Origin: Saliphagus infecundisoli
GTDB taxonomy: Archaea > Halobacteriota > Halobacteria > Halobacteriales > Natrialbaceae
DNA length: 33,166 bases
NCBI RefSeq assembly: GCF_020177375.1
Contig: NZ_JAIWHV010000034.1
Span: forward strand, 1 to 33,166
Direction: 5' to 3'
Positions 8,671 to 26,464 of this stretch are shown here, piece by piece (the first letter of the stretch is position 1; each line of letters opens with the position of its first letter). The notes under the pieces were generated by a model. The model ran no database searches. It saw only the letters and a program-made list of their open reading frames with translations, and was not told the origin of the DNA. A program made the position numbers and the translations under genes.

Positions 8671-8719
8671 TGACAGGCGAAAGGGACGTCTGCGGACACT
8701 ACGATGGGAGATCGACAAA

Positions 8720-9404: not shown

Positions 9405-9598
9405 TGCCTTTAAGCGAACGTGTTGAGATGGCACGCTTCAGAAGCTCGAGGTACTCAGCCGGACACCGCGTTTCCGTTGTATCTGGAGTCAAGCAGGTAG
9501 ATTGCTTATGCACAACCAAGTTCGGGATCTCCATTAGCAAGATAAATTCCACAGATTTCCTGGATGATAAATTTGCCTTGCTAATCTTTGGTAGATAT

Positions 9599-10707: not shown

Positions 10708-10709
10708 CG

Positions 10710-10758
10710 GCCTTGTGCAACAATTGACCGCCTCTCCGTTAAAGATGTTGCACAAGGC
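10710..10758. promoter_or_regulatory. 12-bp inverted repeat bracketing the DUF6788-like gene promoter
   Basis: GCCTTGTGCAAC at 10710-10721 and GTTGCACAAGGC at 10747-10758 are perfect inverted copies with 25 bases between. On the minus strand a TATA-like CTTTAAC falls inside the spacer and the ATG at 10707 is just beyond the proximal arm. Two identical arms on either side of a core promoter fit a repressor operator pair. They could also be recombinase-binding arms or short element ends. Confidence 0.6.
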
Positions 10759-10856
10759 AGTGATGTGATCGCCGTGTCAAGGCCGTATGGACGCCGATTT
10801 GGACGCTCGCAAGCCGAAGACTACTTCTCGAGGAGGTATGTATTGGTGAGTGTCGT

Positions 10857-11024
10857 ATGGCAGACCTCATCGTCCAATCGGCAGTGAAGGACCACCTCGA
10901 CAACCACAACGTTGCATCGGACTTCTACGATGCCGTCGACGAAGAGGTTGCAGAGTTACTCGAGGATGCCGCCCAGCGAGCCGAAGACAACAACCGGAAA
11001 ACAGTCCAGGCTCGCGATCTGTAG
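10857..11024 (+). CDS. Histone-fold-like small protein
   Basis: A 55-residue protein starting MADLIVQSAVKDHLDNHNVA and continuing SDFYDAVDEEVAELLEDAAQ, then RAEDNNRKTVQARDL. The pattern (short helix, loop, long helix with DEEVAELLEDAAxRAExNxRKTVxxRDL) matches the single histone fold of small haloarchaeal proteins of the CBF/NF-Y/HMF type, in which RKTV and RDL close the fold. It probably dimerises; whether it binds DNA or protein is unknown. It is short but has an intact start and stop. A second, mutated copy of the same length lies at 25549-25716. An SD-like GGAGG (10832-10836) lies about 20 nt before the ATG, too far to be typical. Confidence 0.8.
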   Translation: MADLIVQSAVKDHLDNHNVASDFYDAVDEEVAELLEDAAQRAEDNNRKTVQARDL

Positions 11025-11222
11025 ACCGGTCGACCGGGATCATCGATCTGACTTCTTTTAGCCGGATCTGTGACTGAAACGGGTGTTACATACAGGGGAA
11101 GCAGATAGCGGAACGATAATCACACATTTCGCGACAAAGGTGCATTGAGAGCAAGTTCAAGCGGTCGTTTTCGAGAGAGTCGAAGACGCTATGGAGTCTT
11201 CGGCGGCTATTTGCAGCGACAG

Positions 11223-11972
11223 TTAATCAAAGCCATTCCGCACAGTCTCGAGATCGCCGATGAGTGCCGCCGGCGTCGGCGTGTTGCTCCCGTCGTAGGC
11301 GCGTTCGACGTATCCGTCCCGGTTGACGAGCAGCGTCAGGACGACGTGGACGAACGGTGCGTTGCTGCCGTCGTGCCCCGTACTCTGCTGGTCACCGTCC
11401 GTTTGAGTATCGCTGTGGCCCTTTCGAGGGTCCTGGTCATACGTCTCGGTCTTCTCGACGCCGACGCCGAAGGTCCCGTTGACGACGTCGATCGCGCGGT
11501 CGAACGACGGCGGACGGAGGAACTGCCAGTTGTCGGCCGCGGGATCGGCACCTCGATCCGCACTGAACGTCCGGAGGCGCTCGGCAGTATCGAACTGGGG
11601 ATCGAAGGTGATCGGAAGGAGAGCGATCTCGTCTCCGTACCCGTTTTCGGTGGCGTCCACTTGGATCTGTGCTAAATTGCTGGTGAGTACCGGACAGGGG
11701 CCCATACAGCGGGTAAAGACGAACGTGAGGAGGACGTGCCGCTCGCTGTCGAACTCCGTCGTCGTCACCTCGCGATTGTGCAACGGCGATGGGAGCGTCA
11801 CCTCGGGAAGCTGCTGCTCGAACGCCGGAAACGAGAGGGCCTCGCTCTCCGCTCGTCGCCACTCGGGCTTGTCAAGGACCGTCGGGCCAGAATCGCGAAA
11901 CGTACTGAGACACCCTGCTCCAAGAATCGATCCGACGGCCGCAGTACTGCGAAGATATGAACGCCGGTCCAT
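11223..11972 (-). CDS. SCO1/SenC-like copper-handling Tat lipoprotein
   Basis: A 249-residue protein of the SCO1/SenC/PrrC thioredoxin-like family, which delivers copper or acts as a thiol reductase for the CuA site of cytochrome oxidase. It begins MDRRSYLRSTAAVGSILGAG-Cys21: twin Arg and a lipobox, so it is probably exported by Tat and lipid-anchored outside the cell. The SCO metal site is present: Cys89-x3-Cys93 in FTRCMGPCP, and the conserved His (about 209) in APFVHVVLTLL. A polar insert (about 183-205, HSDTQTDGDQQSTGHDGSN) precedes that His. The long upstream extension of the open frame is rejected because it would bury the signal. It is transcribed divergently from the halocyanin gene 93 bp away. 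Confidence 0.88.
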   Translation of the reverse strand: MDRRSYLRSTAAVGSILGAGCLSTFRDSGPTVLDKPEWRRAESEALSFPAFEQQLPEVTLPSPLHNREVTTTEFDSERHVLLTFVFTRCMGPCPVLTSNLAQIQVDATENGYGDEIALLPITFDPQFDTAERLRTFSADRGADPAADNWQFLRPPSFDRAIDVVNGTFGVGVEKTETYDQDPRKGHSDTQTDGDQQSTGHDGSNAPFVHVVLTLLVNRDGYVERAYDGSNTPTPAALIGDLETVRNGFD

Positions 11973-12000
11973 GTATGACACTATTGAAGACGCGTATAAC

Positions 12001-12010
12001 CCAGATCTGG
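12001..12010. promoter_or_regulatory. Palindrome between divergent copper-protein genes
   Basis: CCAGATCTGG is perfectly self-complementary and lies in the 93-bp space between the SCO1-like gene and the halocyanin gene. A TATA-like GTTATAC for the SCO1-like gene (minus strand, about 11994-12000) touches it. The halocyanin TATA-like CTATGAAAAT is at about 12037-12046. It could be a shared operator, but a 10-bp palindrome can arise by chance. Confidence 0.35.
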
Positions 12011-12065
12011 TTTGATTGTCGAAAAGGGCACAAGGCCTATGAAAATCTTGCCCGGACGATGATGT

Positions 12066-12698
12066 ATGTACAGACGGGAACTGCTCAAAGCGGTCAGCGG
12101 CGTGCTCGGTGCCGGCGTTGCTACGACTGCGATGGCCCCCGCCGGAGCCCAGGAGAACGCAAACGAGAGCGGCGGCGAAGAGGGTGGCGGGGAAGCGACT
12201 GGCAACGGAACTGGTGGTGGCAACGAGAGCACCGGTAACGAGACCGGCGGTGATGGAGGTGGAGCGACGGAGACGGTCAACGTTGTGGACAATGCATTTG
12301 AGCCCGAGGAACTCGCGATCGAACCGGGAACGACCGTCCAGTGGGCCTGGCAGGGAACGCAGGCCCAGCACAACGTCCACCCGACGTCTCAGCCTGGTGA
12401 AGCCAATTGGGAAGGTCACATGCCCTTGGAAAGCGGGGACTTCTCCTTCCAGTCCACGTTCGACGTAGAAGGCGAGTACGAGTACCAGTGCGACCCCCAC
12501 GCGAGTCTCGGGATGGTCGGCACCGTCACCGTCAGTCCCGATGCAGGGACGACAGCAGAAGGCCCGATCCAGCTCGTCCCCGACGCGGCCTGGACGCTCG
12601 TCATCGCAACCGTCGCAGGGATGCTCGCGACGCTGTCCCTAGCATACGCGTTCATCCGCTACGGCGGTTCGAATCCCAGCAGTAGTCCCGAACGCTGA
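12066..12698 (+). CDS. Halocyanin-type blue copper protein with C-terminal membrane anchor
   Basis: A 210-residue electron carrier. Residues 1-29 form a Tat signal (MYRRELLKAVSGVLGAG, processing likely near AGAQ). Residues 30-67 are a Gly/Asn/Glu-rich linker with repeated N-E-S/T-type glycosylation sites. Residues 68-158 form a plastocyanin-like domain with the type-1 copper ligands His102 (AQHNVHP), Cys142, His145 and Met150 (YQCDPHASLGM). Residues 175-198 are a transmembrane helix (TLVIATVAGMLATLSLAYAF), so the copper domain faces outward, tethered at its C-terminus. It would pass electrons between membrane complexes in respiration. It is divergent from an SCO1-like copper chaperone, consistent with a shared oxidase-related role. 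The ATG at 12066 gives an ideal Tat signal. Confidence 0.93.
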   Translation: MYRRELLKAVSGVLGAGVATTAMAPAGAQENANESGGEEGGGEATGNGTGGGNESTGNETGGDGGGATETVNVVDNAFEPEELAIEPGTTVQWAWQGTQAQHNVHPTSQPGEANWEGHMPLESGDFSFQSTFDVEGEYEYQCDPHASLGMVGTVTVSPDAGTTAEGPIQLVPDAAWTLVIATVAGMLATLSLAYAFIRYGGSNPSSSPER

Positions 12699-12906
12699 TC
12701 ACTGGGCTTTGGCGACCGTCTCGGTGAGCCTGACAGTACATCTATACAAACTTGACTTCTCTAGACCAATAGATCGAATACGGGTAATGGTAGATGTCAA
12801 GCCACCTAATTTGTATTATCTCAATGAGAGGTGGATGATGGGTGCTGTGATTCGACAATCAAACCCGAAGCGATAGATCATCTCTCGGTATATTTTCGCC
12901 TGTCGT

Positions 12907-13509
12907 ATGGCACCCAACTCGCGCTCCCCGACCGATCGTACGGAGAAGAGCACCCATTCATCAACAAGACGTCGTGTTCTCAAAACGAGCGCCGGTGTGG
13001 TCGCGGCCACAGGCGCTGTGTCAGTATTAACTGGAACTGCAGCTGCCCATTTTCCGGATCAGCTCGTAATCGATGTCAAACCTGGCTGTACGGACAACCC
13101 TCTTGACGTGCAGAATGACGGCGACATCCCAGTTGCTGTCCTCTCAACGGAGTTCGTCGACGAGAACGGAGAGACCGTTACCTTCGATCCGACGGAGCGG
13201 GCCGTGCGGTATCGATTCGGTGCGCCCGCCACTGTAGAGAATGGCGGTGGCGCACGCCCCGTTCACGATGGGGAATGTACCGATGAAGGGACGCTCGTTC
13301 TCCAGTTCCCGATCGAGGACATGGGATTCGAGGGCGACGAGACAACTGGCAAACTCCTCTGGGAACGCGATGAGACTGGCGAACACGGGTACGCTGGAAC
13401 GGACACGATCACCGTTTCCTCTCAGTCCAATGAGTCGGTTAACGATCGCGGAGCCCCGCACACGAGCAGATCAGCGTCTCTCTTCCGCTCTGCACAAAGG
13501 CTGCTGTAA
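12907..13509 (+). CDS. Tat-exported beta-domain protein
   Basis: A 200-residue exported protein of unknown function. After a charged N-terminus comes STRRRVLKTSAGVVAATGAV, a Tat signal, with likely cleavage after the Ala-rich TGTAAAHF. The mature part has LVIDVKPGCTDNPLDVQNDG then DIPVAVLSTEFVDENG, and later YRFGAPATVENGGGARPVHD and LVLQFPIEDMGFEGDE. This IDxKPG...IPVAVL...FGxP...PxHxG...L.FP..D.G pattern is a recurring extracellular beta-sandwich-like unit in bacteria and haloarchaea. The last 20 residues (NDRGAPHTSRSASLFRSAQR) have lost the acidic haloarchaeal character, suggesting a 3' frameshift or replaced end. The promoter may use a GGTATATTTTC sequence just upstream. Confidence 0.75.
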   Translation: MAPNSRSPTDRTEKSTHSSTRRRVLKTSAGVVAATGAVSVLTGTAAAHFPDQLVIDVKPGCTDNPLDVQNDGDIPVAVLSTEFVDENGETVTFDPTERAVRYRFGAPATVENGGGARPVHDGECTDEGTLVLQFPIEDMGFEGDETTGKLLWERDETGEHGYAGTDTITVSSQSNESVNDRGAPHTSRSASLFRSAQRLL

Positions 13510-13615
13510 CGGAGAACCTCGTTGATAGCGATTTCTCGCGTGTAGGTACTGCAGGGATCCATTCGGGCCGATCAATTTCATTCGAACACGCCGAGAGAAG
13601 AGATCTGCTGGGAAA

Positions 13616-13969
13616 CTATTGATGTCTGTTCGTTTCGATGGAACGAGTGGCTGTTGGCGAGCCGCTGCGATAGATCATATAGAGAAGAGTAATTGAAATA
13701 AAGACGTCCGCGCCGTGTTCAACGAGATGATGGACAGTCATTGGAACGAGTCCAAGGACTGTTCCAAGCCCAACAACGGAGCGAGCCACGAGTATCCCCA
13801 AGACGAACGTAATCAACAAATAGCGGACGGTTTGCCGCCGTGAATACGCGATCAGGCTGATTCCGAACAGGAGAATCGTCCCGACCACCGCAAGACCGAT
13901 TATAAGGACGAGAACAGGAGCCAATTGCGGATCCAGCCATTCGCTCCCTCGAAAACTCACAGCGAACAT
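13616..13969 (-). CDS. Small membrane protein (DUF7471-like)
   Basis: A 117-residue membrane protein from the ATG at 13969 (an in-frame ATG lies eight codons earlier). Three hydrophobic helices are visible: about 18-40 (APVLVLIIGLAVVGTILLFG), 49-72 (YLLITFVLGILVARSVVGLG) and 76-102 (VPMTVHHLVEHGADVFISIT, with His residues inside). The layout 'short exterior N-terminus, three helices, TVHHxxEHxxD' is that of a haloarchaeal family often found next to a wHTH regulator, as here. The histidines in the membrane region (HHLVEH) could bind a metal or haem, but this is speculation. Confidence 0.7.
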   Translation of the reverse strand: MFAVSFRGSEWLDPQLAPVLVLIIGLAVVGTILLFGISLIAYSRRQTVRYLLITFVLGILVARSVVGLGTVLGLVPMTVHHLVEHGADVFISITLLYMIYRSGSPTATRSIETNRHQ

Positions 13970-14184
13970 GGGTGATACTGGTGAGTGGAGCATAAACTAT
14001 CTATGGGCTTTGACACGGCTCCTCCGTGAAGGGACCATCCATCGGACTCGGCCCAGCCGTCAGGGGGAACTCGGAAGACAGGTCATCATCACTTCCCACT
14101 TCCCAGGAATCGGCGAAAGGCACTATTGTCTCTGCTTGGTATCTCCGGTATCAGTTTCCCTGCAACCCGACCCAGGCGATCTCA

Positions 14185-14700
14185 ATGACAGGAACACGGC
14201 AGCAGATCCGAACACACGTCCACGAGAGTGCGGGTATACATTTTAACGAGCTCGTTAGAGCCTCTGAATTTGCGCCAGGCCAGATCCAGTATCATATTCG
14301 GCGCTTGATCAATGAAGACGCCCTCGTCCGATGTGAATTCTACGGCCAAACCCACTACTATCCTCCTGGATACGACGAGTGGGAGCGGGGAGCACTAGCG
14401 TTGTTCCGTCGTGAAACTGCCCGAGAAATCGTCGTCCATCTCATTGAACACGAACCAGCCAGCCCCACCGAAACCGCTGAGGCGCTTGGAATTGCCCGAA
14501 GCACTCTTGAGTATCACGTTAACCACCTCATTGAGCAAGAAGTAGTGAAAAAGGAATATGGTATACGAAATCAAGTCACACTTCATCTGGCTCAGCCAGA
14601 CCAAATTGGCCCGTTGCTGTCAGAGGTAAGGCCAACAGTCCCCGATCGGTTCATTGATCGATTCACGAGACTCGTCGACAGTCTCCTTGACCGGTCTTGA
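14185..14700 (+). CDS. Tandem winged-HTH transcriptional regulator
   Basis: A 171-residue cytoplasmic regulator with two winged helices. The first (about 1-62) has MTGTRQQIRTHVHESAGIHF, ELVRASEFAPGQIQYHIRRL and the wing EFYGQTHYYPPG. The second (about 72-132) has RRETAREIVVHLIEHEPASP and TETAEALGIARSTLEYHVNH. The open frame extends to 14026, but the sequence before 14185 lacks haloarchaeal character, and MTGTRQQIRTHV is a natural start. It is divergent from the small membrane protein; in other haloarchaea such pairs are conserved, so it may control that gene or itself. No ligand domain is present beyond the two wHTH domains. Confidence 0.8.
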   Translation: MTGTRQQIRTHVHESAGIHFNELVRASEFAPGQIQYHIRRLINEDALVRCEFYGQTHYYPPGYDEWERGALALFRRETAREIVVHLIEHEPASPTETAEALGIARSTLEYHVNHLIEQEVVKKEYGIRNQVTLHLAQPDQIGPLLSEVRPTVPDRFIDRFTRLVDSLLDRS

Positions 14701-14983
14701 ATAGTTTGGTCAAGTGAAGAATTAGAATTGCCTGCCACTTTGAATCGCCGACAGAGGCTGAAGGAACCACAGTGATTGAACCAAATCTACTCTCGAACTA
14801 CTCATTCTCTCGGTTATTTTGTTGGTGTGAAACAATAAATATCGAAATATCACATCACATATTCGCACCCTGATGTAATATTGGAAGGGTTGTCATCGGT
14901 ATCGTCCTCACCGAGTCAGTTTGGGATTATCAATATTCATGAAGTAACAGACACTTTGAATAGGGAGGAAGACAATCAATTCT

Positions 14984-15271
14984 ATGACTACGTACGCATC
15001 ACTCGTTGACGCTACAAGCGAAGACATTCAGACCGTCCAGGAGCTAGCAGTGATCTGGGGCGAGCTTCAAAACGGATTTACCGATCATGATGCTGAGCTC
15101 ATCGACTCCTATGCAATGCTCGGGACACACGACTTCCTCATCATCTTCGAGGTTCCTGATGGTGACGGGGCGACGAAGGCAGCGCTAACATTGCGTGAGC
15201 ATGGACTCTCTACACACACGATGGAGATCCAAAACATGGATGACTTTGCTTCCATCGTTGACGAAATTTGA
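14984..15271 (+). CDS. GYD-domain protein
   Basis: A 95-residue cytoplasmic protein matching the GYD family (small ferredoxin-like alpha/beta proteins of unknown function). Visible features are the N-terminal strand TTYASLVDAT, the helix SEDIQTVQELAVIWGELQ, the core SYAMLGTHDFLIIFEVPDGD, in which THDF replaces the usual GxYD, and the C-terminal helix of the repeat LTLREHGLSTHTMEIQNMDD. It stands alone, with non-coding DNA on both sides (283 and 700 bp). A GGGAGGAAG sequence about 14 nt before the ATG may be a ribosome-binding site, unlike the leaderless neighbours. Confidence 0.85.
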   Translation: MTTYASLVDATSEDIQTVQELAVIWGELQNGFTDHDAELIDSYAMLGTHDFLIIFEVPDGDGATKAALTLREHGLSTHTMEIQNMDDFASIVDEI

Positions 15272-15971
15272 CCCCGATTGATCCGGTGGATAATCTCCTA
15301 GGCATAACGTTCCTCCGGATACTGCTCAATTGAACCGTCCAGCTCAGCTCCCACCCATCGCCCTGCAAGCATATCCCCTATCCACAGACCTATTTCCCTC
15401 GGATCTCTGAGGGTAGACTGCACGGTCTACAGGGGACCATCTGACAATCGGGACCGTGCTACCAGTTAACGGACATCCGTTCGGGCAGGGTGTCTTTCCC
15501 GGCCCCTGCCCGTTTCCTGGCAGGTAACTCGTTCACGGACAGTAACCAGCACGGCTCTCCGTCATCCGTACAAGAACCATCAAGCCTATAATTCAGCACG
15601 CATGCGACCCATTTGCACGGCCTGGTTCCCCATTCGGACCGTTCCCCCCAGGTTGTGCTACCTGCAAGCGCGTTCGATCGGGCTAACTCCCCACTCTCCC
15701 GGCCCGATCACTTTCACGGGAGCGAAGTCTGAAAGCCATACATCTATTGATCTACAGTGCGGCCTTCCTGAGTGCACGACCTGATCTGAAGGCACATCAA
15801 TGGGGTCGTGCTGCCTGTCAGAGGCACACCGGCGGGCTGATTCCCTTTCCCCATCGCCCGCTTGCTTTCCTCATTCGCTTGGGGGCAAGGACCGTACTTA
15901 CGCCCTGTTGCCCTCTCATTACCGATAGCCGTCCGAAGGGTATTTCGACGCCTCTCCCTAGGCCAGATATA
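15272..15971. other. 700-bp non-coding region rich in hairpins
   Basis: No protein gene is convincing on either strand. Several perfect inverted repeats follow one another: GTAGAC/GTCTAC (15413-15430), GCACGGTC/GACCGTGC (15420-15427 with 15452-15459), AACGGA/TCCGTT (15468-15481), CGGGCAGGG/CCCTGCCCG (15482-15512) and GATCGGGC/GCCCGATC (15676-15709). The first two are mutually exclusive. The region could encode a structured RNA or be a decayed mobile element. The DedA-like gene starts at its right end. Confidence 0.45.
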
Positions 15972-16580
15972 ATGGATTTGACGGAGGCCACACTCCACTT
16001 TATCCGCCTGTATGGCCCTCTCATATTGGTCATTTTCACGTTCCTCGAAATGTCGATGCTGTTCCCCTTTCTTCCGAGCGAAGTCGTTGTCCCGGGCGCC
16101 GCTGCGATACTCATCACCGACGCCACGTCGTTTCTCGTGTTCATATTGGCAGCCGGCGTCGGCGGAACGGTCGGAGCATTCGTTCCGTACTACGTCTTTC
16201 ATGCGACCCGATCGGGTGGGGTTGGCTGGATCAAGGATCGCATTACCGTCTCAGAAGAGAACACTAACCGAGGGCGGGAATGGTTCCAGGAGTGGGGGCA
16301 GTCGTCAGTTCTCTGGGGACGATTTCTCCCTGTGTTGCGGTCCGTGATCTCCATCCCGGCTGGTCTGGCCAGAATGAGATCGATGCGATTTGGCGTCTTC
16401 ACGGCGATCGGCACCGTTGGATTTTACGCGGCCACGGGAGCACTCGTTTACTTCGGCCGACAACAGCCCCTGTTTAGGGCAGCAGTCAGTTCCGTCATCG
16501 ACAGACCAGCCCTCACTGCAGTCGGAGCACTGTCTCTTCTTACAATCGGAGTTGTTCTTAGGAGATATCGTCAAAGTTAA
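15972..16580 (+). CDS. DedA-family membrane protein
   Basis: A 202-residue polytopic protein of the DedA/VTT (SNARE-associated) family. Members are lipid scramblases or undecaprenyl/polyprenyl-phosphate transporters and influence membrane potential; the exact role in archaea is unknown. Family marks: the early re-entrant segment FTFLEMSMLFPFLPSEVVVP (about 21-40), and after a cytosolic loop the signature WGRFLPVLRSVISIPAGLAR (about 115-134), matching the conserved F/W-x-R-F-x-P-x-x-R...AG. Four to five hydrophobic segments follow this layout. The open frame extends upstream, but ATG 15972 gives a normal N-terminus. No operon partner is visible. Confidence 0.88.
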   Translation: MDLTEATLHFIRLYGPLILVIFTFLEMSMLFPFLPSEVVVPGAAAILITDATSFLVFILAAGVGGTVGAFVPYYVFHATRSGGVGWIKDRITVSEENTNRGREWFQEWGQSSVLWGRFLPVLRSVISIPAGLARMRSMRFGVFTAIGTVGFYAATGALVYFGRQQPLFRAAVSSVIDRPALTAVGALSLLTIGVVLRRYRQS

Positions 16581-16673
16581 TTCTCAACCGTTCACCTATA
16601 CGACTTCTACATACTGATAGCTCAGTAGTTTACTCAGCGAAGTTCACTGACCACGGTACCTAGAGCTGAGATT

Positions 16674-17276
16674 TTATTTCCGTGAGCGGTCCTCAGTAGT
16701 GACACTAACCTGGGATTCTGCCTGCGTTCCTCGCTCTGAAGGTGTCTCATCCATCAGTTCAGCCAACTTCTGTTCGAATGTGGACTCGCTAATTTCGCCC
16801 GTCACGTATTGCTCTCGGAGTTCTCGTTTTCGATCTTCAGTCGTTGGTTCGACCACTGCGGATACATCGAATCGCCGGAGCAGCGGGAAATGGCGTTCAA
16901 GTTCTGTAACGAGAGTGACGAGGCGATCGTCACGCGGAAGCGATGCGTTTCGGAGGATCGAGACGATGGCGGCAGTCAGAAACACCAGTGCGATCAGTCC
17001 GAGCACGAGCACGATTACAATCCACTCTGCGGCTGCACTAAGCATGGTCAGGACCGCCAGTTCCTCGCTCCCAGGGACACCACCAGAAAGGACGGAGAGT
17101 CCTTCGAAGACTCCCATCAACCCTGCGCCGACGATCGCAATCGCTGTTACGACAAAGCCACCGAAGTACAGCCAGTGGCGAGCTACCATATCTGAGGGTT
17201 GGGACGAAGAGGGATTAAGTGTACGGACCTGATCAGCCAACGAGTCTCTCGATAACTCACCCGTCAGAGTAGGCAT
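16674..17276 (-). CDS. Two-helix membrane protein with C-terminal SHOCT domain
   Basis: A 200-residue membrane protein. Two hydrophobic helices: about 35-58 (YFGGFVVTAIAIVGAGLMGV) and 83-107 (AEWIVIVLVLGLIALVFLTA). The soluble C-terminal tail has a short Glu/Arg helix (TTEDRKRELREQYVTGEISE) followed by STFEQKLAELM. This 'L-x-x-x-Y-x-x-G-E-I-s-x-x-x-F-x-x-k-l-x-x-L' pattern is the SHOCT domain, thought to mediate oligomerisation. Its role in the cell is unknown. Met30 (MVARHWLYFGG) is an alternative start just before the first helix. The gene is divergent from the tandem UspA gene, whose ATG is 83 bp away with an inverted repeat between them. Confidence 0.8.
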   Translation of the reverse strand: MPTLTGELSRDSLADQVRTLNPSSSQPSDMVARHWLYFGGFVVTAIAIVGAGLMGVFEGLSVLSGGVPGSEELAVLTMLSAAAEWIVIVLVLGLIALVFLTAAIVSILRNASLPRDDRLVTLVTELERHFPLLRRFDVSAVVEPTTEDRKRELREQYVTGEISESTFEQKLAELMDETPSERGTQAESQVSVTTEDRSRK

Positions 17277-17333
17277 AGGATGAGTTCTGGGTTACGACCC
17301 ATCGAGCCATGCAACGAACAGGTACACCTGTGG

Positions 17334-17354
17334 TCCGTGAGTACGACTCACGGA
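17334..17354. promoter_or_regulatory. Perfect 9-bp inverted repeat just before the tandem UspA gene
   Basis: TCCGTGAGT at 17334-17342 and ACTCACGGA at 17346-17354 are perfect inverted copies with a 3-base spacer (ACG). The repeat ends 5 bases before the UspA ATG, inside the 83-bp divergent space shared with the SHOCT gene. It covers the position of core promoter and start site, so a bound regulator could block transcription. If the transcript starts further up, it would be a hairpin next to the start codon. Confidence 0.55.
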
Positions 17355-17359
17355 GTACT

Positions 17360-18247
17360 ATGTTCGACCGGGTTCTGATCGCAGTGGACGAGAGCGACCA
17401 TTCGCGACGGGCTGCAATGGTCGGCCTTGCGTTCGCGACAGCGTATGGCGCCGACATCGATGTGGTTCACGCCGTCGAAGACGCTTCCTCGACGACCAGT
17501 ACAGAAAACAGAAATCAGGATCATCAGGGCACCGACGACATCCTCACAGGCATCTCCGAGAGAGCTACCGACGTCGGCGTCACCGGTGAGACGCATGCCA
17601 TCGAGGGGAAACCACCAGAGGTCATCGTCAATCAAGCGAACGAGTCGAACGCAGATCTCATCGTTATGGGGCGCCAAGGCCGGTCAGGCATCAGTGAGCA
17701 GGTCCTTGGAAGCGTCACTGACCGGGTCCTCCGTAATACTGATGTCCCCGTGCTGGTTGTCCCGAGCGGCGAGCCCGTCAGTGGTGATGACAGCAGGTTT
17801 GATCGCATTCTCGCTCCGACGGACGGCAGCGAGACCGCCGAACAGGCAGCACCATACAGCACGGATATCGCCAAGCACCACGACGCAACGCTTCACGTCC
17901 TCAACGTCATCGACCCGCGGTTTGAAGGCATCTTCAGTGCGGGCGGCGGCTCCGAGGAATTCTTCGAGCGACTCGAGGAGCGTGGTCACGACTTTATCAA
18001 TCAATACATCGAGCATGGCGGCCAAACAGCCACAGAGACACCGACTGATGTGAATATCCACAAAGCGGTTGTTCGAGGCACGACGTCTGAAGAAATAGAC
18101 GAGTATGCCGTCGAGAACGATATCGATCTCGTCGTGATGGCCTCACAAGGCGAATCCGGCCTGACCGGCCAACTACTCGGAAGCATCGCAGATCAAACTC
18201 TCCGTGAGAGCGAGAAACCAGTGCTAATCATCCCATCGACCGAGTGA
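17360..18247 (+). CDS. Tandem universal stress protein (two UspA domains)
   Basis: A 295-residue cytoplasmic protein with two UspA domains. Domain 1 begins MFDRVLIAVDESDHSRRAAM and carries the ATP-binding signature G104-x2-G107-x9-G117-S118 in MGRQGRSGISEQVLGSVT, followed by the PVLVVPSG strand. Domain 2 begins FDRILAPTDGSETAEQAAPY and has MASQGESGLTGQLLGSIADQ, where Ala replaces the first Gly, ending PVLIIPSTE. Such proteins bind ATP and respond to stress, often partnering transporters; a Na+/Ca2+-exchanger-like gene is convergent just downstream and another UspA is next to the phosphate transporter. The open frame reaches 17309, but ATG 17360 matches family starts and lies after an inverted repeat. 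Confidence 0.93.
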   Translation: MFDRVLIAVDESDHSRRAAMVGLAFATAYGADIDVVHAVEDASSTTSTENRNQDHQGTDDILTGISERATDVGVTGETHAIEGKPPEVIVNQANESNADLIVMGRQGRSGISEQVLGSVTDRVLRNTDVPVLVVPSGEPVSGDDSRFDRILAPTDGSETAEQAAPYSTDIAKHHDATLHVLNVIDPRFEGIFSAGGGSEEFFERLEERGHDFINQYIEHGGQTATETPTDVNIHKAVVRGTTSEEIDEYAVENDIDLVVMASQGESGLTGQLLGSIADQTLRESEKPVLIIPSTE

Positions 18248-18296
18248 CCGGCGGGAAACCACCGAATTCTGTCCAGCGGAGATCGACTGCTGGGAC

Positions 18297-19691
18297 TCAG
18301 TCAGCCTGTTCGGGTTGCGCACTACCTGATCGAGTGGTCTTTCGGATACTCCCCATGGTTCGCGAGAGGAGATCCCGAAGGGCCTCACGGCGGGTGTAAA
18401 AGAGCCACGCTCCGATGATGAGATAGATGGCCGTATAAGCGTACAATACGTCGATACTGAGCGCCGTCGCCTGCGGTTCGGAGACCGTTTGGATAATGGC
18501 GAATTCGATGCCGACCTGTGAAAGGAAGAGGACGAGCAGCCCGACCGCCTCGCGCATGCTGATCTCGAAGTTCGTTAGGAGTGCAATCGCGAAGAAGCTC
18601 TGGGCGGCGGTGATCCAGATCTCGGCGATCTGTTTCTGGTCGAACGGCAATCCTCCAAGATGGCCTGCAGCGATCGAGTAGACCACCGCGAGCGTTCCGA
18701 TCAGCAGTGTCCACTGATTGAGTTTCGAGGAGATCAGAGCGTTGAATCCGGCGGTCGAGCGTGCCTTATTGACGAGATAGGCGACGACGATGAGCTCGGG
18801 GCTCTCAGAAGCAAGCGGCGCGAGCCACTGGATCATGAAGAACTCGGGAATGCCGTACTGGAGGCCCAGTTCTTCGAGGCCGGTGGCGAACGGCTCCACT
18901 GCGATAAAGATCAGTACACCCGAAAAGGCGAACAAGAACAGGACGCTGGCGATGCGTGGTCCCTTCGACCACGATTGAAGATACGCAGGGACGCCGACGT
19001 GCACCTCCTCTTCGTCAACGTCGCCACGGATGATGATGGCGAGATACATCACATACAGCCCAACGAGGACCAGCGTGTCAAGCAGACCGATGCCACCAAC
19101 GGGACCGCCGCCACTCAACGTGGCCCCACTCAACGGGACCAGAAAGGCGAACAGAGTCGCGGCGAGCAGGAATGTAATCTCAACGGCGAGGTCACGGTCG
19201 AGGGTGACCACGTCCGCGAGAACGCCCGAGCGGCGTTCGACAGCGGGGTCGGTGTGGGTTCGCGCTCGATACACCGTGAACAGTGCAATCGCCGCCCAGC
19301 CGATTCCGATCAGGATGCGGTTCGCGCCGGTCATGTTGGCAACCGCGAGATTGGCGTTATCCATGCCCTCGGCAGTCCCCTCCAATGCCCCGGCGTTCCA
19401 CGCATACAGCGCATCGACGGCGTATTCGGGCGCGACCGCGAGTACTGCGAGCACCGCGATAGCAAATGCCCGTGGGACGTCTTTCTCGGCGGTTTCAGCT
19501 CCCCACGCCAGGAGGAAGGCCGCGCCGAGCACGGCAAGCCCGGCGACGATGACCGTCGTTAACGGCGCGATGTTCTCGCCTGGATGGACCGTCATGTAGC
19601 CACCGTAGGAAGCGAACGTGACGATCCACGGGAGGGTCAAGACGAAGGCGAAAGCGACCGCGACCAGGGGATGCCGGAACCGATTCAACAT
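18297..19691 (-). CDS. Na+/Ca2+-exchanger-like (CaCA family) membrane protein
   Basis: A 464-residue polytopic membrane protein with about eleven helices. Two inverted alpha-repeats characteristic of cation/Ca2+ antiporters are visible: GAETAEKDVPRAFAIAVLAV then VAPEYAVDALY (about 64-96), and APLASESPELIVVAYLVNKA (291-310) followed by AGFNALISSKLNQWTLLIG. The acidic residues in these repeats (Glu in GAE and APE, Glu in SESPE) and the Asn in NALISSKLNQW are the expected ion-binding side chains. It would exchange Ca2+ or another cation for Na+ or H+ across the cytoplasmic membrane. An Arg-rich cytoplasmic tail ends the protein. It is convergent with the tandem UspA gene (49 bp) and divergent from the PiT-like gene (209 bp). 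Confidence 0.85.
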   Translation of the reverse strand: MLNRFRHPLVAVAFAFVLTLPWIVTFASYGGYMTVHPGENIAPLTTVIVAGLAVLGAAFLLAWGAETAEKDVPRAFAIAVLAVLAVAPEYAVDALYAWNAGALEGTAEGMDNANLAVANMTGANRILIGIGWAAIALFTVYRARTHTDPAVERRSGVLADVVTLDRDLAVEITFLLAATLFAFLVPLSGATLSGGGPVGGIGLLDTLVLVGLYVMYLAIIIRGDVDEEEVHVGVPAYLQSWSKGPRIASVLFLFAFSGVLIFIAVEPFATGLEELGLQYGIPEFFMIQWLAPLASESPELIVVAYLVNKARSTAGFNALISSKLNQWTLLIGTLAVVYSIAAGHLGGLPFDQKQIAEIWITAAQSFFAIALLTNFEISMREAVGLLVLFLSQVGIEFAIIQTVSEPQATALSIDVLYAYTAIYLIIGAWLFYTRREALRDLLSRTMGSIRKTTRSGSAQPEQAD

Positions 19692-19740
19692 TAGGGGACC
19701 TCGTGGTGCCCCTAATCCTATCTCTTTTGATCTGAGATAG

Positions 19741-19800
19741 TACGGGCGACCTGCCTCACTCTCCTCGCTCGTTTCGTGAGGACAGGGCTTCCTACATTCC
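19741..19800. other. Possible remnant of an IS200/IS605-type end
   Basis: In the divergent space before the PiT-like gene, CCTGCCTCAC (19750-19759) can pair with GTGAGG-A-CAGG (19776-19785), followed by GCTTCCTACATTCC. Hairpin-plus-GGCTTCCTAC sequences resemble the ends of haloarchaeal tnpB-type elements, but no tnpA or tnpB gene is present. It may be an abandoned end or chance. Confidence 0.3.
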
Positions 19801-19900
19801 TGACGAGCTTTGCGGTTCTGATCAGGGTAATTTATAACTTATGAGGATTATTTTCGTGGGTCGGTAGATACTTACGACTACTTCTCCCATACCTTATTGG

Positions 19901-21079
19901 ATGTCTCTTACGACGGTCTTAGTTGTCGGTATCGTTGCGTCGATCTTTGTTGGATTGAATATCGGCGGCTCCTCCACGGGGATCGCGTGGGGACCTGCAG
20001 TCGGGGCTGGGATTATCTCGAAAACGCTCGCTGCCGGGCTGATGACCTTCTTCGTCTTTCTGGGCGGCTGGACAGTCGGCCGGAACGTCATGGACACACT
20101 AGCTGGAGACATCATCACGATCCCGATTTCGCTTGAATCGGGCGTTGCCGTGCTCTTTTTCATCGGGCTGGGGATTCTCATCGCGAACGTCTTCGGCGTC
20201 CCCGTGCCGACTTCAATGACAACCGTTGGTTCGATCGCCGGGCTCGGACTCGCGACCGGAACGCTCAACTTCGAAACGATCGGGTGGATCGTTTCCTGGT
20301 GGGTCGTCACGCCGATTATCGGCTTCTGGGTCGGAGGCGTGATCGGTCGCTACCTCTACCCAGAGCTCAACCGACGATTCGAGATCACCACCTCGGAGGG
20401 CCCACTGCTGGCCCTCGACCGACGTGGAACCGTTCCGACTCCCACACTTGGTCCGAACACGACCCGGAGGGAACTCCTCACTACAGTCCTCGTTCTGATT
20501 ATCGGCTGTTACATGGCGTTCAGCGCCGGCGCAAGCAACGTTCCCAACGCGGTCGCACCACTTGTCAGCAGCGGCGCGTTGGAGGTCAACACGGCGATTG
20601 CCATTGCGACCGTCGCGATCGGAGTCGGCGGCTTCACGATCGCCCGCCGGACGATGGAGTCAGTTGGAACCGAACTCAGCGACATTCCATTGCTCGCCGC
20701 GCTCATCGTGATGCTGACGGCCGCGACGATCACGACCGCCCTCTCAGCCATCGGCATCCCGATCAGCCTCGTCATGGCGATGGTGATGACGATCGTCGGG
20801 CTCGGCTGGGGGCGTGCGACCCGGCCGGTCAGAGTCCGTGACGTTCGTGACGTCATCCGAGGAGACGAAACTGCCGAGATCGAACCCGGTGCGCTTACTG
20901 CAGACCCAAATACGCCTGTTCGCCAAATCGGCGAGGAGGAACCTCGGGAAGTTCGAGAGGCGAGTGATCTGTTCAATCCCCGGGCAGTGATCAAATACGT
21001 TTCAATGTGGATCATCGGACCGACGGTCTCACTCGGCCTCTCGTACGCGTTTTTCGTTGCGTTCCCGTTCGTCGGGTAG
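19901..21079 (+). CDS. PiT-family inorganic phosphate transporter
   Basis: A 392-residue membrane protein of the PiT family, which imports phosphate with Na+ or H+. The second internal repeat carries AGASNVPNAVAPLVSSG (209-225), close to the family GANDVANAxA/P signature. The first repeat is altered: GLNIGGSSTGIAWGPAVGAG (18-37) replaces the usual GANDxANA. The conserved PVPTSMTTVGSIAGLG (101-116) matches the PVSTTH...VG segment. About ten helices surround a cytoplasmic loop (about 155-190). A polar segment (about 320-355, with NTPVRQIGEEEPREVREASD) precedes the last helix. A UspA gene begins 43 bp after its stop in the same direction, a frequent pairing in haloarchaea. An AT-rich promoter region precedes it. 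Confidence 0.85.
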   Translation: MSLTTVLVVGIVASIFVGLNIGGSSTGIAWGPAVGAGIISKTLAAGLMTFFVFLGGWTVGRNVMDTLAGDIITIPISLESGVAVLFFIGLGILIANVFGVPVPTSMTTVGSIAGLGLATGTLNFETIGWIVSWWVVTPIIGFWVGGVIGRYLYPELNRRFEITTSEGPLLALDRRGTVPTPTLGPNTTRRELLTTVLVLIIGCYMAFSAGASNVPNAVAPLVSSGALEVNTAIAIATVAIGVGGFTIARRTMESVGTELSDIPLLAALIVMLTAATITTALSAIGIPISLVMAMVMTIVGLGWGRATRPVRVRDVRDVIRGDETAEIEPGALTADPNTPVRQIGEEEPREVREASDLFNPRAVIKYVSMWIIGPTVSLGLSYAFFVAFPFVG

Positions 21080-21122
21080 TATCGTCAGGACGCTTATTCA
21101 TGCGTGCGTCGTAGATAAGGGT

Positions 21123-21542
21123 ATGATTTCCCGTGTCCTCGTTCCAATGGACAAGTCCGAGATGGCCGAACACGCGCTCAGATACGCGCTTGAGGCGTTT
21201 CCGGATGCCGAGATTACCGTCTTCCACGTCGTTGGCGAACCGTCGGCATTATGGGGTGAAGCAGCCAGTCTCGCACTCGCGGACGATATCGGTCAAGCCG
21301 CCGAAGAACACGCCTCGGACGTTTTCGATGACGCTCGAGCGATTGCCGACGAGTACGATCGAGAAATTGCGACGGACGTGCAAGTAGGCCATCCGACACG
21401 TGCGATTCTGAATGCGGCTGAGGGATTCGATACCGTTGTGATCGGCCCACATGGAGGCTCGTTAGCTGATCGACTCCTTATGGGGAATGTTGCCGAGACG
21501 GTCTTTCGTCGGTCTCCCGTTCCAGTTACTGTCGTTCGGTGA
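21123..21542 (+). CDS. Universal stress protein (single UspA domain)
   Basis: A 139-residue single UspA domain: MISRVLVPMDKSEMAEHALR, then EITVFHVVGEP, and a glycine-containing loop VVIGPHGGSLADRLLMGNVA before the last strand RRSPVPVTVVR. The loop keeps G-x2-G but the following S/T position is replaced by NVA, so ATP binding is uncertain. It lies 43 bp after the PiT-like phosphate transporter. A TATA-like CTTATTC about 28 nt before the ATG suggests its own leaderless transcript. It may modulate the transporter, as proposed for transporter-linked Usp proteins. The open frame extends to 21057, but the ATG at 21123 fits family and promoter. Confidence 0.9.
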   Translation: MISRVLVPMDKSEMAEHALRYALEAFPDAEITVFHVVGEPSALWGEAASLALADDIGQAAEEHASDVFDDARAIADEYDREIATDVQVGHPTRAILNAAEGFDTVVIGPHGGSLADRLLMGNVAETVFRRSPVPVTVVR

Positions 21543-21669
21543 ATTTCCTGCATGCACCGTAGTGGTGAGATGTCACCGACTAGATCCCCTGGTCTGGCGT
21601 TACATACAGGATGAGTAGGTCAAGGAAGAACCACTGTATTCATTGACAGCAATCGGCGGATGTAGGGAC

Positions 21670-22269
21670 TTACTGTTTCGTTACTTCGAATTGGAAGCCC
21701 CACGTGAATGTTTGTCCATCAATAGTCACAGAATTTCCAAATGTAAACTCTCCCTCAGGCCAGCAGACATCATCCTCTACGCCTCCCCACAGCGCGGCGT
21801 CACCTGAGTACGATTCGCTCGGTTTGAGCTCTATTTGGTTTTCCTCACGAGCTACCCGATAGGGATTATTGTCGGGGTCCGCATTCTCCCAACAGTCTGA
21901 TCGTCGATCATCTGTCGTCCACGAGGATGGCTGTAAAAGAACGTAGTTAGGCGGCTCACTCGATTCTACGAGTAGGTTCGGGACAGGAATGCTTCCAACA
22001 TCAAATTGTTGGACGGTATCTGCTTCATTAGTGAGTGTAAATCGAAACGCGACCGTCTGATCAGGAGTCACCCGACTTGTGGTCGCTTCAACAGACAGTG
22101 AAACAGAAACAGAATCAGGTATCTCGCCGGTGGAGGTAACTGACACAGAGCGCCGCTGGAATGACTCGTCCTCTGAGGAGTTTGCAGGAGAACTCCCAAT
22201 TGACGTGCATCCAGCAAGAAAAATGGGTGTGCTGCTCCCAATCGTTGCGAGAAAACGGCGACGATCCAT
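21670..22269 (-). CDS. Tat-exported lipoprotein of unknown function
   Basis: A 199-residue exported protein. It begins MDRRRFLATIGSSTPIFLAG-Cys21: twin-arginine signal and lipobox, so it should be lipid-anchored on the outer face. After a Ser/Glu-rich spacer comes a beta-sandwich-like domain with VSLSVEATTSRVTPDQTVAF and RFTLTNEADTVQQFDVGSIP, the layout of intracellular-proteinase-inhibitor-like (BsuPI) or cohesin-like domains. Two Cys (SDCWENADPDN, DDVCWPEGEF) could form a disulfide. The end GQTFTWGFQFEV is typical of a closing strand. The start at 22269 is chosen because it gives the signal; the frame upstream is not protein-like. No clear partner. Confidence 0.8.
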   Translation of the reverse strand: MDRRRFLATIGSSTPIFLAGCTSIGSSPANSSEDESFQRRSVSVTSTGEIPDSVSVSLSVEATTSRVTPDQTVAFRFTLTNEADTVQQFDVGSIPVPNLLVESSEPPNYVLLQPSSWTTDDRRSDCWENADPDNNPYRVAREENQIELKPSESYSGDAALWGGVEDDVCWPEGEFTFGNSVTIDGQTFTWGFQFEVTKQ

Positions 22270-22440
22270 GGCATCTCGTTCTGAGTGTGAGGAGAAAAAA
22301 TTTCGGGAAGGTGAAATAACTATTTTCTCGTCCGTGTAAATACCACTCATCGTCTGTGGTTTGAGGGGTAGTTCACAAGAACAGCTAACAGAGGTGGAAG
22401 GGTCGGCGTGGACTGATCCATTTAGCGCGGTCAAATCGGA

Positions 22441-22734
22441 TTGGTTTCGGAAGCACCCGTTCCGGATCCCGATAAGATCTGGTTCGCTCACGTTGTTCGG
22501 GTTGGCAGAGGCTCCGACGACGGGACAAAACAAATCAGGTGGTCCGACGGGGTCACCTCGAAGTCATTAGGCATAGACGTATCTAATACAGCAGCTGGTG
22601 TGAACAAGTGGTCGGGATGGACAGAGTTCGAGATTGGTGATCCAACACAAATTCTGGGGTTACGCGTGCAGGGGCGCAACTTAGATGGAGGGACGACCCA
22701 AGTCGATAACACGAACTTCAATATCGATATCTAA
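22441..22734 (+). CDS. Hypothetical protein, possibly a truncated gene
   Basis: A 97-residue ORF: MVSEAPVPDPDKIWFAHVVR then VGRGSDDGTKQIRWSDGVTS, later WSGWTEFEIGDPTQILGLRV and ending VDNTNFNIDI. The alternating hydrophobic pattern suggests a beta-rich domain. It has no signal or helix and its start is not well defined. It may be the surviving 3' part of a longer gene. No family was recognised. Confidence 0.4.
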   Translation: MVSEAPVPDPDKIWFAHVVRVGRGSDDGTKQIRWSDGVTSKSLGIDVSNTAAGVNKWSGWTEFEIGDPTQILGLRVQGRNLDGGTTQVDNTNFNIDI

Positions 22735-22776
22735 TGATGCAACGCTCCAACCAGTACGAACCGATTGCTATTCGTG

Positions 22777-23067
22777 CTATTTCACGTTGACAAAATCCGC
22801 TTTGAATTGGCCGTTTGAATTTCCAAAGCGGCACCCAGTCAAATGGTTCGTTGTCGATTCATCTGCCTTGGTTAGTTTCATCTCGAATATCATCGGAGGG
22901 TCTCTCATCATATACCGACTAATTTCAAGCTGACTCCCTTCTCTAGGAAATATCATACCATGGACATCACTTCCATCAGAGTGTTCAACATAGAGATCGT
23001 TCCGGTGCCACTGATCAGGACCTTCTATTTCGACTGTGTCTCCCTCCTTCGTGTCAAAGGTGAACAT
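22777..23067 (-). CDS. Small hypothetical beta-rich protein
   Basis: A 96-residue protein of unknown function: MFTFDTKEGDTVEIEGPDQW, HRNDLYVEHSDGSDVHGMIF, then EISRYMMRDPPMIFEMKLTK. Repeated alternating strands suggest a small barrel. Acidic character fits haloarchaeal proteins although the DNA is AT-richer than average, suggesting acquired DNA. It lies between two other fragments in a region with a transposase remnant. A normal ATG start is present (CAT at 23065-23067). Confidence 0.5.
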   Translation of the reverse strand: MFTFDTKEGDTVEIEGPDQWHRNDLYVEHSDGSDVHGMIFPREGSQLEISRYMMRDPPMIFEMKLTKADESTTNHLTGCRFGNSNGQFKADFVNVK

Positions 23068-23221
23068 ACAGATTCACTGTACTCATGACACATAGAGATG
23101 GTGGCTCAGCACTCAAGACTGAGGGCCCGTGTTACACCTCGAAGTTCGTGTTACGTGCGGAGGAAACAGGTCCCAGAGCGATTACCGAATGCCATGAGGT
23201 CTGTCAAACAAATCACCCGTA

Positions 23222-23599
23222 TTGACACTCGTCCATCGGGATGACGTCCGAGTGCGGTTTCTCGTCTGTGAAGATCTAAAAGACGTTGACGAAGACATCG
23301 TTGAATACGGCGACGGAAGTGTGATCCTCTGCACTGACGACTACACGATTTACGACGACATCAAGGAGACGGAGACGGTGGACGGTCGTCCGGCCGTCAC
23401 CCACGCCAATACCTACGTGATTGGTGACGCTCACACAAACACCCGCGAGAACCGCGATAGCTTCCTTCGCCAGTCGCTTGCGAAGTTCAGGGGCGTCCCG
23501 AAGCACCATCTCCAGAAATATCTCAGCATCCTCCGCCTGAAAGTTAACTCACCGGATGATTGGTTCGAGAAACTGCTGTGTTACAATGTATCGAAATGA
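23222..23599 (+). pseudogene. C-terminal remnant of an IS1595-type transposase
   Basis: The ORF opens at a TTG and encodes 125 residues resembling the C-terminal half of IS1595/ISXO2-like transposases: VILCTDDYTIYDDIKE (second catalytic Asp), then VIGDAHTNTRENRDSFLRQS and AKFRGVPKHHLQKYLSILRL, ending NSPDDWFEKLLCYNVS. The H-x-N-x-x-E-N segment and closing FEKLLCY are typical. The N-terminal zinc-ribbon and first Asp are missing, so this is a dead fragment left by an older insertion. AT-rich DNA surrounds it. Confidence 0.75.
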
Positions 23600-23733
23600 G
23601 CGTATCACCTTTGGCAATATAATATCAGAATCCGCACTCCAACATCACGATACGACGATGGCGTCAACGGCAGATAGATTCGCTATTCAAAGCGAAGAAT
23701 TGACAATAATCCGATTACTCGGCTTCTTTTGAT

Positions 23734-25266
23734 ATGCCCGCCGCATATGGAATATATACGGTTGCTATAGCATATATCTCAGCGGTGGCGGTCTCCTTAC
23801 TGGCATACGGCACCGCTGACCACAGCCGTCAATCCGACAGTCTCATCGGCATTTTACAAGTTGGGGCCGGGTTAATCGTGGGGCTGTATCTGCTCCTGTT
23901 TCAGTTCGGGGGAGTGACTGATTCACTCGTCCGCGGGCTAACTCATGGGCCGGTCGCGGCACGATCGTACCTCCTTCTGGCAATGGTCGCCGGTGTCGTC
24001 ACGATGGATTACCTGTTGCGGCGGCTCATTCCGGCAGTGACCGCCGGCGTCCGGCGTCTCATGGCTCGAAACGGATCCATCGGGACCGCCGAAAGTGGTA
24101 TCGAGAGAACACGACGATCGGTGTTCGGCGTGAGCTTGGGAATCGCCACGGCGGGTTTCACGGGCGGGTTTACGTTGTTGGACGGGTTCCTGCAATCACG
24201 GAATGGCGGGGCAAACGGGATTTCGGAGTTCCGACAGCGTGCGACGTTCGAGGCGCCCTACTTTCCCGCGGCCTTAGACTTCAGCGAGCAAGGCTATGGG
24301 TACGTGGCATCGCTTGAGGAGGGGATATTCAGATTTGAACAGCCCTCGTCCGACCAGGAGTCGCTCAACTTCACGAAGGTCGCCTCCGACATCCAGTATC
24401 CCCAGGGCGTCGAGGTGTCCGGTGACACCCTTTATACCGTCGACAATGGAAGTGCGGCCAGCGGCAAGTACGATGCGGAGAACGGATATAACGTGTTACA
24501 GGAGTCGAACGGCAAGGTGCTCGCCTTTGATATCGAATCTGACGGCTCACTCAGTAATCGGCGCACGATCCTTTCGAACCTCCCCGTCGTGAATAGCGAC
24601 CACGCACTTCACCAGATCGAGACCGGGCCAGACGGAAGACTGCACCTCTCCATTGGACACCTTGGCGGGCGGAAGTACCCCGAGATGTTTGACGGGAAGA
24701 ACTACGAGCCGAGCGATGCGGACCATCCCAATCATGAGTATCTCGGGACCGTGATTTCCTTCGATCCAGATGGCTCGAACGTCGAGATCGTGGCCACCGG
24801 ACTACGGAACGTCTACGACCTCACGTTCGACCAAGATGGCAACCTGTTCGGCGCGAACAACGACGGGATGTCGATGCGATCGAAAGTCTGGGAGTCACTC
24901 CTCCACATCACCGACGGCGCAGACTTCGGTTATCCCGAGTACGGCACGTTCGGTTCAAGTCCGTCCGGTGAAGACGTGACGGATCCATTGTGGATTCTGG
25001 ATGGCGTCCAGTCGACTGGCGTCGAAACGATGGACAAGCTCGGCGCTGAGGACGGTATCGTCGTGGCACTCGCCAACAAGATAGCGTTCGTCCCGATCGG
25101 ACGGGGCGAGGACGGCGTATGCGTGCCGGAGTTTCTCCGCCCAGAGCCGAGTATCATCGAACCGGACGGAATTCCAATCGTCGTCGAAGCGGGCCCGGAT
25201 GGTTTGTTGTGGGTTGGCTCCATCGGGCAGGACGATACGTTCACACTGTACGAACCCGCGTCCTGA
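23734..25266 (+). CDS. Membrane-anchored glucose/sorbosone dehydrogenase-like beta-propeller
   Basis: A 510-residue protein. Four hydrophobic helices lie at about 5-25, 36-58, 77-97 and 130-152. A long outward domain from about 165 follows, with repeated propeller strands: EQGYGYVASLEEGIFRFEQP, YPQGVEVSGDTLYTVDN, HQIETGPDGRLHLSIGHLGG, TGLRNVYDLTFDQDGNLFGA, ITDGADFGYPEYGTFGSS, EAGPDGLLWVGSIGQ. The GLRN...FDQDGNLFGANNDG and DGADFGYPEY segments are typical of the GSDH (soluble glucose dehydrogenase-like) family, which uses PQQ in some members; PQQ binding cannot be confirmed here. An N-terminal membrane domain joined to a GSDH propeller is unusual. An IS1595 remnant precedes it. Confidence 0.8.
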   Translation: MPAAYGIYTVAIAYISAVAVSLLAYGTADHSRQSDSLIGILQVGAGLIVGLYLLLFQFGGVTDSLVRGLTHGPVAARSYLLLAMVAGVVTMDYLLRRLIPAVTAGVRRLMARNGSIGTAESGIERTRRSVFGVSLGIATAGFTGGFTLLDGFLQSRNGGANGISEFRQRATFEAPYFPAALDFSEQGYGYVASLEEGIFRFEQPSSDQESLNFTKVASDIQYPQGVEVSGDTLYTVDNGSAASGKYDAENGYNVLQESNGKVLAFDIESDGSLSNRRTILSNLPVVNSDHALHQIETGPDGRLHLSIGHLGGRKYPEMFDGKNYEPSDADHPNHEYLGTVISFDPDGSNVEIVATGLRNVYDLTFDQDGNLFGANNDGMSMRSKVWESLLHITDGADFGYPEYGTFGSSPSGEDVTDPLWILDGVQSTGVETMDKLGAEDGIVVALANKIAFVPIGRGEDGVCVPEFLRPEPSIIEPDGIPIVVEAGPDGLLWVGSIGQDDTFTLYEPAS

Positions 25267-25868
25267 GCCAAAGTCAGGATCGAGCAAGCGGGTCACGCGA
25301 CGGCTGGCACGGGTTGCGAGATCGAAGGAGTCCACCCTCATCAGTCATGCAAGGCATGGGCGAAGTCGCGGACGAACTGCTCTTCGCCGTTGTCGATGGC
25401 CGTGACTTCCGCACTTGGGGCGAGGGGGTCGGGCATCTGAATCGAAGACGAGGTCCGTAATCGACAACCAAGGACCGTCTATACGTAATTTTGGGCGCTT
25501 GCAAGCCAGAGGATCCGTTTCAAATAGATATGTACTCGTGAGCGTCGTACGGCGGAGCTCATCATCCAATCGCCAGCGAAGGACCAACTCGACAACCACA
25601 ACGTTGCGTCGGACTTCTACGATGCGCTCGACCAGGAGGTTGCGGAGTTACTCGAGGATACCGTCCAGTGAGCCGAAGACACCGACCGAAAAACGGTCCA
25701 GGCTTGCGATCTGTAAACCGGTCGACCGGAGTCATCGAGCTGACTTCTTTTAGTCGAATGTGTGACTGAAACAGCCGTTAAATACAGTGTGTTTGCATAT
25801 TGATGAAATCAACCGTAATTAATAGTGAATAAACAGGTTTATGCAAAAGGTGTGTGATATAAAACAGC
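25267..25868. other. Non-coding region holding a dead gene copy
   Basis: The stretch contains the mutated histone-fold gene copy (25549-25716), its duplicated flanks (about 25486-25791) and, at the right end, AT-rich DNA with a TATA-like TTTATGC about 28 nt before the next gene. At 25341-25436 on the minus strand a 31-codon ORF (ending EEQFVRDFAHALHD) could be a fragment of a longer acidic protein, but the evidence is weak. Confidence 0.5.
25549..25716 (+). pseudogene. Dead copy of the histone-fold-like gene
   Basis: This is a second copy of the gene at 10857-11024, with exactly the same length (168 nt) and no indels. The start ATG has become ACG, and codon 41 (CGA, Arg) has become TGA. The remaining reading is still clearly homologous (AELIIQSPAKDQLDNHNVAS then DFYDALDQEVAELLEDTVQ). 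Homology continues on both sides, about 60 nt upstream and 75 nt downstream. The two copies are about 14.7 kb apart in the same orientation. Confidence 0.85.
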
Positions 25869-26309: not shown

Positions 26310-26464
26310 CCCGTCTGTACTCCCCGTTTGTGTAGGTTTTCCCAGAGTTAGCGGATAAGCATGAGCACGAAGGCTCTAAAGCGAGATTTGAACGCGTCTG
26401 CACACGGTTGGGCGTCACGATCCCGCAGATTCTGACTTCGCACATCAGTTCTTGTCATTGATAC

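Follow-up and report, generated by a model that had tools for sequence, protein, structure and literature searches.

A predicted accessory face-to-face histone gene of Saliphagus infecundisoli, its decaying duplicate, and the dispersed junction sequence at their right border

Why does one contig of the haloarchaeon Saliphagus infecundisoli hold the same small histone-fold gene twice, once intact and once dead, and do the two copies represent a unit that moves by itself? We addressed this question in a stretch of 33,166 nucleotides (contig NZ_JAIWHV010000034.1 of assembly GCF_020177375.1), here called the window. It is labeled C27 among the contigs of the genome, and its live and dead copies are labeled C27a and C27b (Table 1). 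Direct comparison confirmed the pair described in the first-pass annotation: the genes have the same length and orientation and no indels between them, and the second has lost its start codon (ACG replaces ATG) and carries TGA as codon 41. The copies are offset by 14,692 bp. In blastn, they aligned without gaps over 298 bp (10798 to 11095 and 25490 to 25787) at 83.9% identity. Identity in 20-bp windows was 15 to 19 of 20 across the gene and for most of the 3' flank, with one 5' window dropping to 10/20; background was reached near +240 and, on the 5' side, beyond about -80. The flank borders proposed earlier (10790 to 11096 and 25486 to 25791) were correct to within a few bases, and homology does not stop at the coding region, as both flanks are duplicated.

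The live gene is predicted to encode an accessory face-to-face (FtF), DUF1931-like histone. Its product matched Pfam DUF1931 with 23.0 bits (cutoff, 21.8) and, over residues 1 to 54, HTkC, the FtF histone of Thermococcus kodakarensis (PDB 9f2c; E = 1.7e-6). The signature residues of FtF histones are given as K11, R41, N45, and RxTxxxxD (R47, T49, and D54) (PMC11390915). All of these are present in the live copy (K11 in helix 1), as in known FtF histones; R41, N45, R47, T49, and D54 are invariant across 30 aligned live sequences. At the tetramer residues R41 and N45, the dead copy has the stop codon and T, respectively. An AlphaFold model of the monomer reached only a moderate pLDDT of 77; the PDB entry that it matched best, again 9f2c, was nonsignificant. 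The histone-fold call of the earlier annotation was borne out by the sequence match and the signature residues. The FtF histone HVO_0196 of Haloferax volcanii likewise has 55 residues and a histone-fold sequence. Judging from known relatives, an FtF tetramer would bind and wrap about 50 to 60 bp of DNA, and a DNA-packaging function of the product is suggested by its sequence. Because Halobacteria are known to have one chromosomal FtF histone and additional plasmid-borne ones (PMC11390915), an accessory copy is to be expected, and extra plasmid copies are of an already known kind.

The genome contains seven FtF genes, two each on the window contig and C23 and one each on C26, C47, and C22. The live/dead pair is real, then, but makes up only two of seven related genes. 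As with known FtF histones, one chromosome-type copy is accompanied by accessory copies (PMC11390915): in a gene tree, the C22 gene groups with the core, chromosomal FtF genes of Natrialbaceae and others, and the other six genes sit on smaller contigs. Unlike in known cases, there are seven genes in one genome, one of them a pseudogene, and extra copies are linked to a DUF6788 gene and a dispersed inverted repeat (IR). Haladaptatus litoreus has at least five FtF genes on several contigs (L060, L064, L067, L129, and L138), four of which fall in a single Haladaptatus clade.

Only C27a, C27b, C26, and C47 have flanks in common. In the tree, which was built from 165 bp and has weakly resolved deep nodes, C27a and C27b (94/84) and C26 and C47 (91/85) form sister pairs. 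Pairwise among the live copies C27a, C26, and C47, dN was 0.05 to 0.08 and dS was 0.50 to 0.58, with 0 or 1 second-position changes (dN/dS, about 0.14 to 0.16 for C27a against C26 and C47). The live copies are therefore under purifying selection. Between C27a and C27b, dS was only 0.23, compared with 0.50 to 0.58 for the other pairs among the four flank-sharing copies, yet dN was 0.11 and 4 second-position changes had occurred. The dead copy is therefore a younger duplicate that has evolved under relaxed constraint. Its second-position changes numbered 4 to 5, in contrast to 0 to 1 in live pairs.

Table 1. Positions of the histone copies, their flanks, and associated sequences in the window
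Feature	Position	Strand	Basis
Block common to C47, two pieces	8448..11096	+	8448-10364 at 92%, 10362-11096 at 78%
DUF6788 gene, intact, 114 aa, divergent from live histone	10363..10707	-	Pfam PF20586, 34.1 bits (cutoff, 27.2)
49-bp inverted repeat, GCCTTGTGCAACA-N23-TGTTGCACAAGGC	10710..10758	.	Dispersed on accessory contigs
5' flank of live copy (promoter/leader), common to the other three copies	10798..10856	+	Alignment
Live gene, predicted FtF histone, 55 aa (MADLIVQSAVKDHLDNHNVASDFYDAVDEEVAELLEDAAQRAEDNNRKTVQARDL)	10857..11024	+	Pfam, PDB match, signature residues, dN/dS
Junction element straddling the right border; core GTTACATACAG at 11085-11095	11053..11125	+	nhmmer, E = 1.6e-8
Further core copy	21599..21609	+	In C47, same sequence directly after the histone block
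5' flank of dead copy; homology to live copy begins; without DUF6788 and IR	25490..25548	+	Alignment
Dead copy, pseudogene	25549..25716	+	ACG for ATG; TGA in place of R41 (25669-25671)
Decayed core GTTAAATACAG, right border of dead copy	25777..25787	+	Sequence comparison
Further core copy, same orientation	27968..27978	+	Pattern search

In a four-way alignment, the flank-sharing copies ended together on the right but at different places on the left. C27a, C26, and C47 share a left region that includes the IR and the divergent DUF6788 gene, and homology between C27a and C47 extends over about 2.65 kb. The C27a/C47 block is a mosaic, since its two pieces differ in identity. Copy 2 alone begins about 60 bp upstream of the gene, and its left break is not at the junction core described below. 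Judged from the reading frames, the DUF6788 gene, intact in the window, is frameshifted in C47, truncated in C26, and absent at the dead copy. Farther left in the window, a tyrosine recombinase fragment (198 aa, Phage_integrase; 8074 to 8670) is followed by a LAGLIDADG-like open reading frame (8642 to 9187), and part of this region lies inside the 92% piece. The ends of C47 are identical over 122 bp, but this is no proof of circularity, since C40 ends in the same 122 bp, which may be an assembly repeat.

The IR is itself dispersed. The genome-wide pattern, ACCTTGTGCAACA-N(21-24)-TGTTGCACAAGGC (arm distance, 34 to 37; spacer not conserved), was found at the window site and about 30 more places, on contigs C4, C5, C7, C10, C12, C16, C17, C23, C25, C26, C29, C36, C37, C44, C47, C59, and C60; the two long contigs C11 and C22 held no exact copy. 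Strict copies numbered 28 in this genome, compared with 1 across 124 other genomes of the family. The IR also adjoins DUF6788 in plasmids of Halalkalicoccus, outside the family, and none was found in viral contigs. We considered a simple operator at start codons, which holds for DUF6788 (arm 3 nt from the ATG), but a crude ORF call placed no start codon near most of the other IRs. At 7 of 23 loci (L031, L034, L039, L046, L052, L054, and L057), a gene for a PadR-like regulator (MYDLTGFQRDLLYV...) is present no more than 1.5 kb from the IR, and its product could be the IR-binding protein.

At the far end of the window, a direct repeat (79% identity) with a piece of a DDE_3 transposase occupies 26455 to 26794 and 32827 to 33166. 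The contig may break at this insertion sequence, whose second copy ends it. An accessory-contig gene for a TATA-binding protein is located at 31740 to 32300, and the block around it (31206 to 32833) is common to C26 at 93%.

On the right side, all four flank-sharing copies end at GTTANRTACAG. Pattern searches and selected regions, from which the genome-wide statistics are drawn, gave 35 exact copies of the core GTTACRTACAG in the genome, compared with 0 for the reversed control. The copies are spread over accessory as well as long contigs, in most cases with no histone gene, and more than 30 of the places are nonhistone. Genomes of the closest multi-copy genus, which we infer to be Natronococcus, contain 3 to 11 cores each, versus 0 to 3 elsewhere in the family. 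These sites are apparently intergenic and have a conserved left half, TTTCTTTATTCAG...GTGAAACTCGC, and a right half, GGTAACG...GATAGCTGTCAAGA. An nhmmer profile built only from these 39 Natronococcus sites matched the histone 3' flank in the window. The 3' flank is thus one example of an intergenic element that is dispersed and runs past the supposed cassette border. The common right border is not histone specific: the duplicated right flank exists as first reported, but its sequence recurs at many histone-free places.

The left and right neighbors of the core are freely combined. Sequences to its left form three recurrent families, one of which is the histone 3' end, and those to its right form six recurrent pairs. 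In C47, the histone 3' flank passes through the core into a sequence that lies 10.5 kb away in the window, behind another core at 21598 (C47:1210-431 corresponds to window 21598 to 22378 at 87%). The sequence to the right of the window's core recurs on C15 behind a different left part (84% over 1.5 kb). We then compared usable ends of homology blocks of at least 150 bp with random site placement. In 13 of 82 cases, the end was no more than 15 bp from a core on the first sequence, compared with 0.66 expected (2,000 trials; maximum, 7), in regions picked for holding cores and with the random control on the same regions. Twelve block ends had a core on both sequences; five were ends of histone copies and seven were others. 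Genes occur on either strand around core sites. Tandem sites in the same orientation are spaced at about 0.8 to 1.3 kb, and the interval often contains one predicted gene (C40:11774, 12592, 13717, and 14636; C5:63861 and 64879; C7:66161 and 67190; C15:1428 and 2774).

The likely explanation is that an accessory FtF histone gene was duplicated within larger plasmid blocks shuffled at the junction, with one copy now decaying. C27a, C27b, C26, and C47 would descend from a single ancestral locus, composed of the histone gene, its promoter, and the 3' intergenic element, with the IR and the divergent DUF6788 gene to the left. The copies would have arisen and traveled inside larger plasmid blocks joined at GTTACRTACAG, which would be why all four end there. 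Copy 2 would be the latest duplicate to derive from the live copy in the window, presumably made by recombination at the junction. It would have lost its left neighbor first and then its start codon and frame, and would now be decaying under relaxed selection. We found no recombinase linked to the junction and saw no excised or circular form.

It is possible, in our view with less than even probability, that the copies instead arose by ordinary segmental duplication and homologous recombination between related plasmids. GTTACRTACAG would then be only a short shared homology or a conserved terminator or promoter region, not a recombination site. C26 and C27 do share further blocks elsewhere at 91 to 93%, the 3' flank holds a T-rich stretch that resembles a terminator, and the site has no recombinase tied to it, with the integron integrase model not reached in this genome (TIGR02249; best, 28.4 bits; cutoff, 265). 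However, block ends coincide with the core much more frequently than with random positions, and a given left part is found next to various right parts, and vice versa. The presence of genes on either strand around the sites also speaks against this alternative.

We consider it unlikely that the copies are xenologues rather than duplicates made in this lineage, each brought in on a different plasmid by its own horizontal transfer from a common pool of accessory modules. The dS of about 0.5 among C27a, C26, and C47 does indicate an old divergence, and the DUF6788-IR association in Halalkalicoccus plasmids would fit such a pool. The two window copies, however, are sisters with low dS, and the four copies had no closer same-flank relatives in any genome or plasmid searched. 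In 60 relatives, the match was confined to the coding region or a few bases beyond. Across 392 genomes of the order queried with the 5' flank, the promoter part was found in the source genome only, and two genomes of one other genus matched only the IR part. Fifty-six plasmid records matched the histone unit, and among the matches listed none ran more than a few bases past the gene. Phage records gave no match to the histone unit, leading us to reject a phage origin, and no defense-system annotation was found.

The earlier proposal that the gene and its flanks form a self-contained unit of about 300 bp, which would be moved in trans, is very improbable and mostly refuted already, even though the coding region, the greater part of both near flanks, and the right end are common to the four copies: the left ends lie as much as 2.3 kb from one another, with three copies sharing far more DNA; the right end is the generic core; no direct or inverted word of at least 6 bp joins the borders of either window copy, and no target-site duplications were found there; and, while the search for further copies did reveal shared flanks in C26 and C47, copies in the other genomes and plasmid records searched share the coding region alone and never the borders, so that under the refuting condition set with the earlier proposal this is not a mobile unit.

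If blocks are shuffled at the junction, as we favor, the site invites comparison with known systems. Integron gene cassettes and CALINs have been reported in other archaea (PMC9668308). As in integron cassettes, a short core containing GTT joins the blocks, an inverted GTAAC arm lies upstream of some sites, and sites on C40, C5, C7, and C15 are in tandem. We nevertheless rejected an integron or CALIN reading, since the integrase is absent, the core differs (GTTACRT does not fit the GTTRRRY of attC), and folding is weak, the upstream arms folding little or no better than shuffled DNA (z-scores, -2.3 to 0). The dif/pdif modules are moved by XerC/XerD. The junction may resemble them: its sites fit a loose 28-bp consensus, cGTTACRTACAGgnnannCAGRTAACG, in which inverted arms flank a 6-bp center. 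No Xer recombinase was linked to it, and unlike dif/pdif sites, the junction has a poorly conserved right arm and long extra conserved flanks.

The histone pair itself has an ordinary cause; the unexpected part is the junction sequence, which may be the more interesting object. Speculatively, and we regard this as doubtful, GTTACRTACAG and its half-conserved flanks could be where crossover takes place in a haloarchaeal module-shuffling system not yet described. With a site-specific recombinase acting in trans, such a system would transfer genes, singly or in blocks and including the FtF histone, between plasmids and the chromosome in the source genus and Natronococcus. The histone part offers a clear case of FtF copy number growth and decay on accessory replicons and is a useful starting point for the question of why a plasmid has a chromatin protein of its own. 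If true, the junction part would matter more, as an archaeal counterpart to the shuffling of cassettes or dif modules would account for the way in which haloarchaeal plasmids are pieced together.
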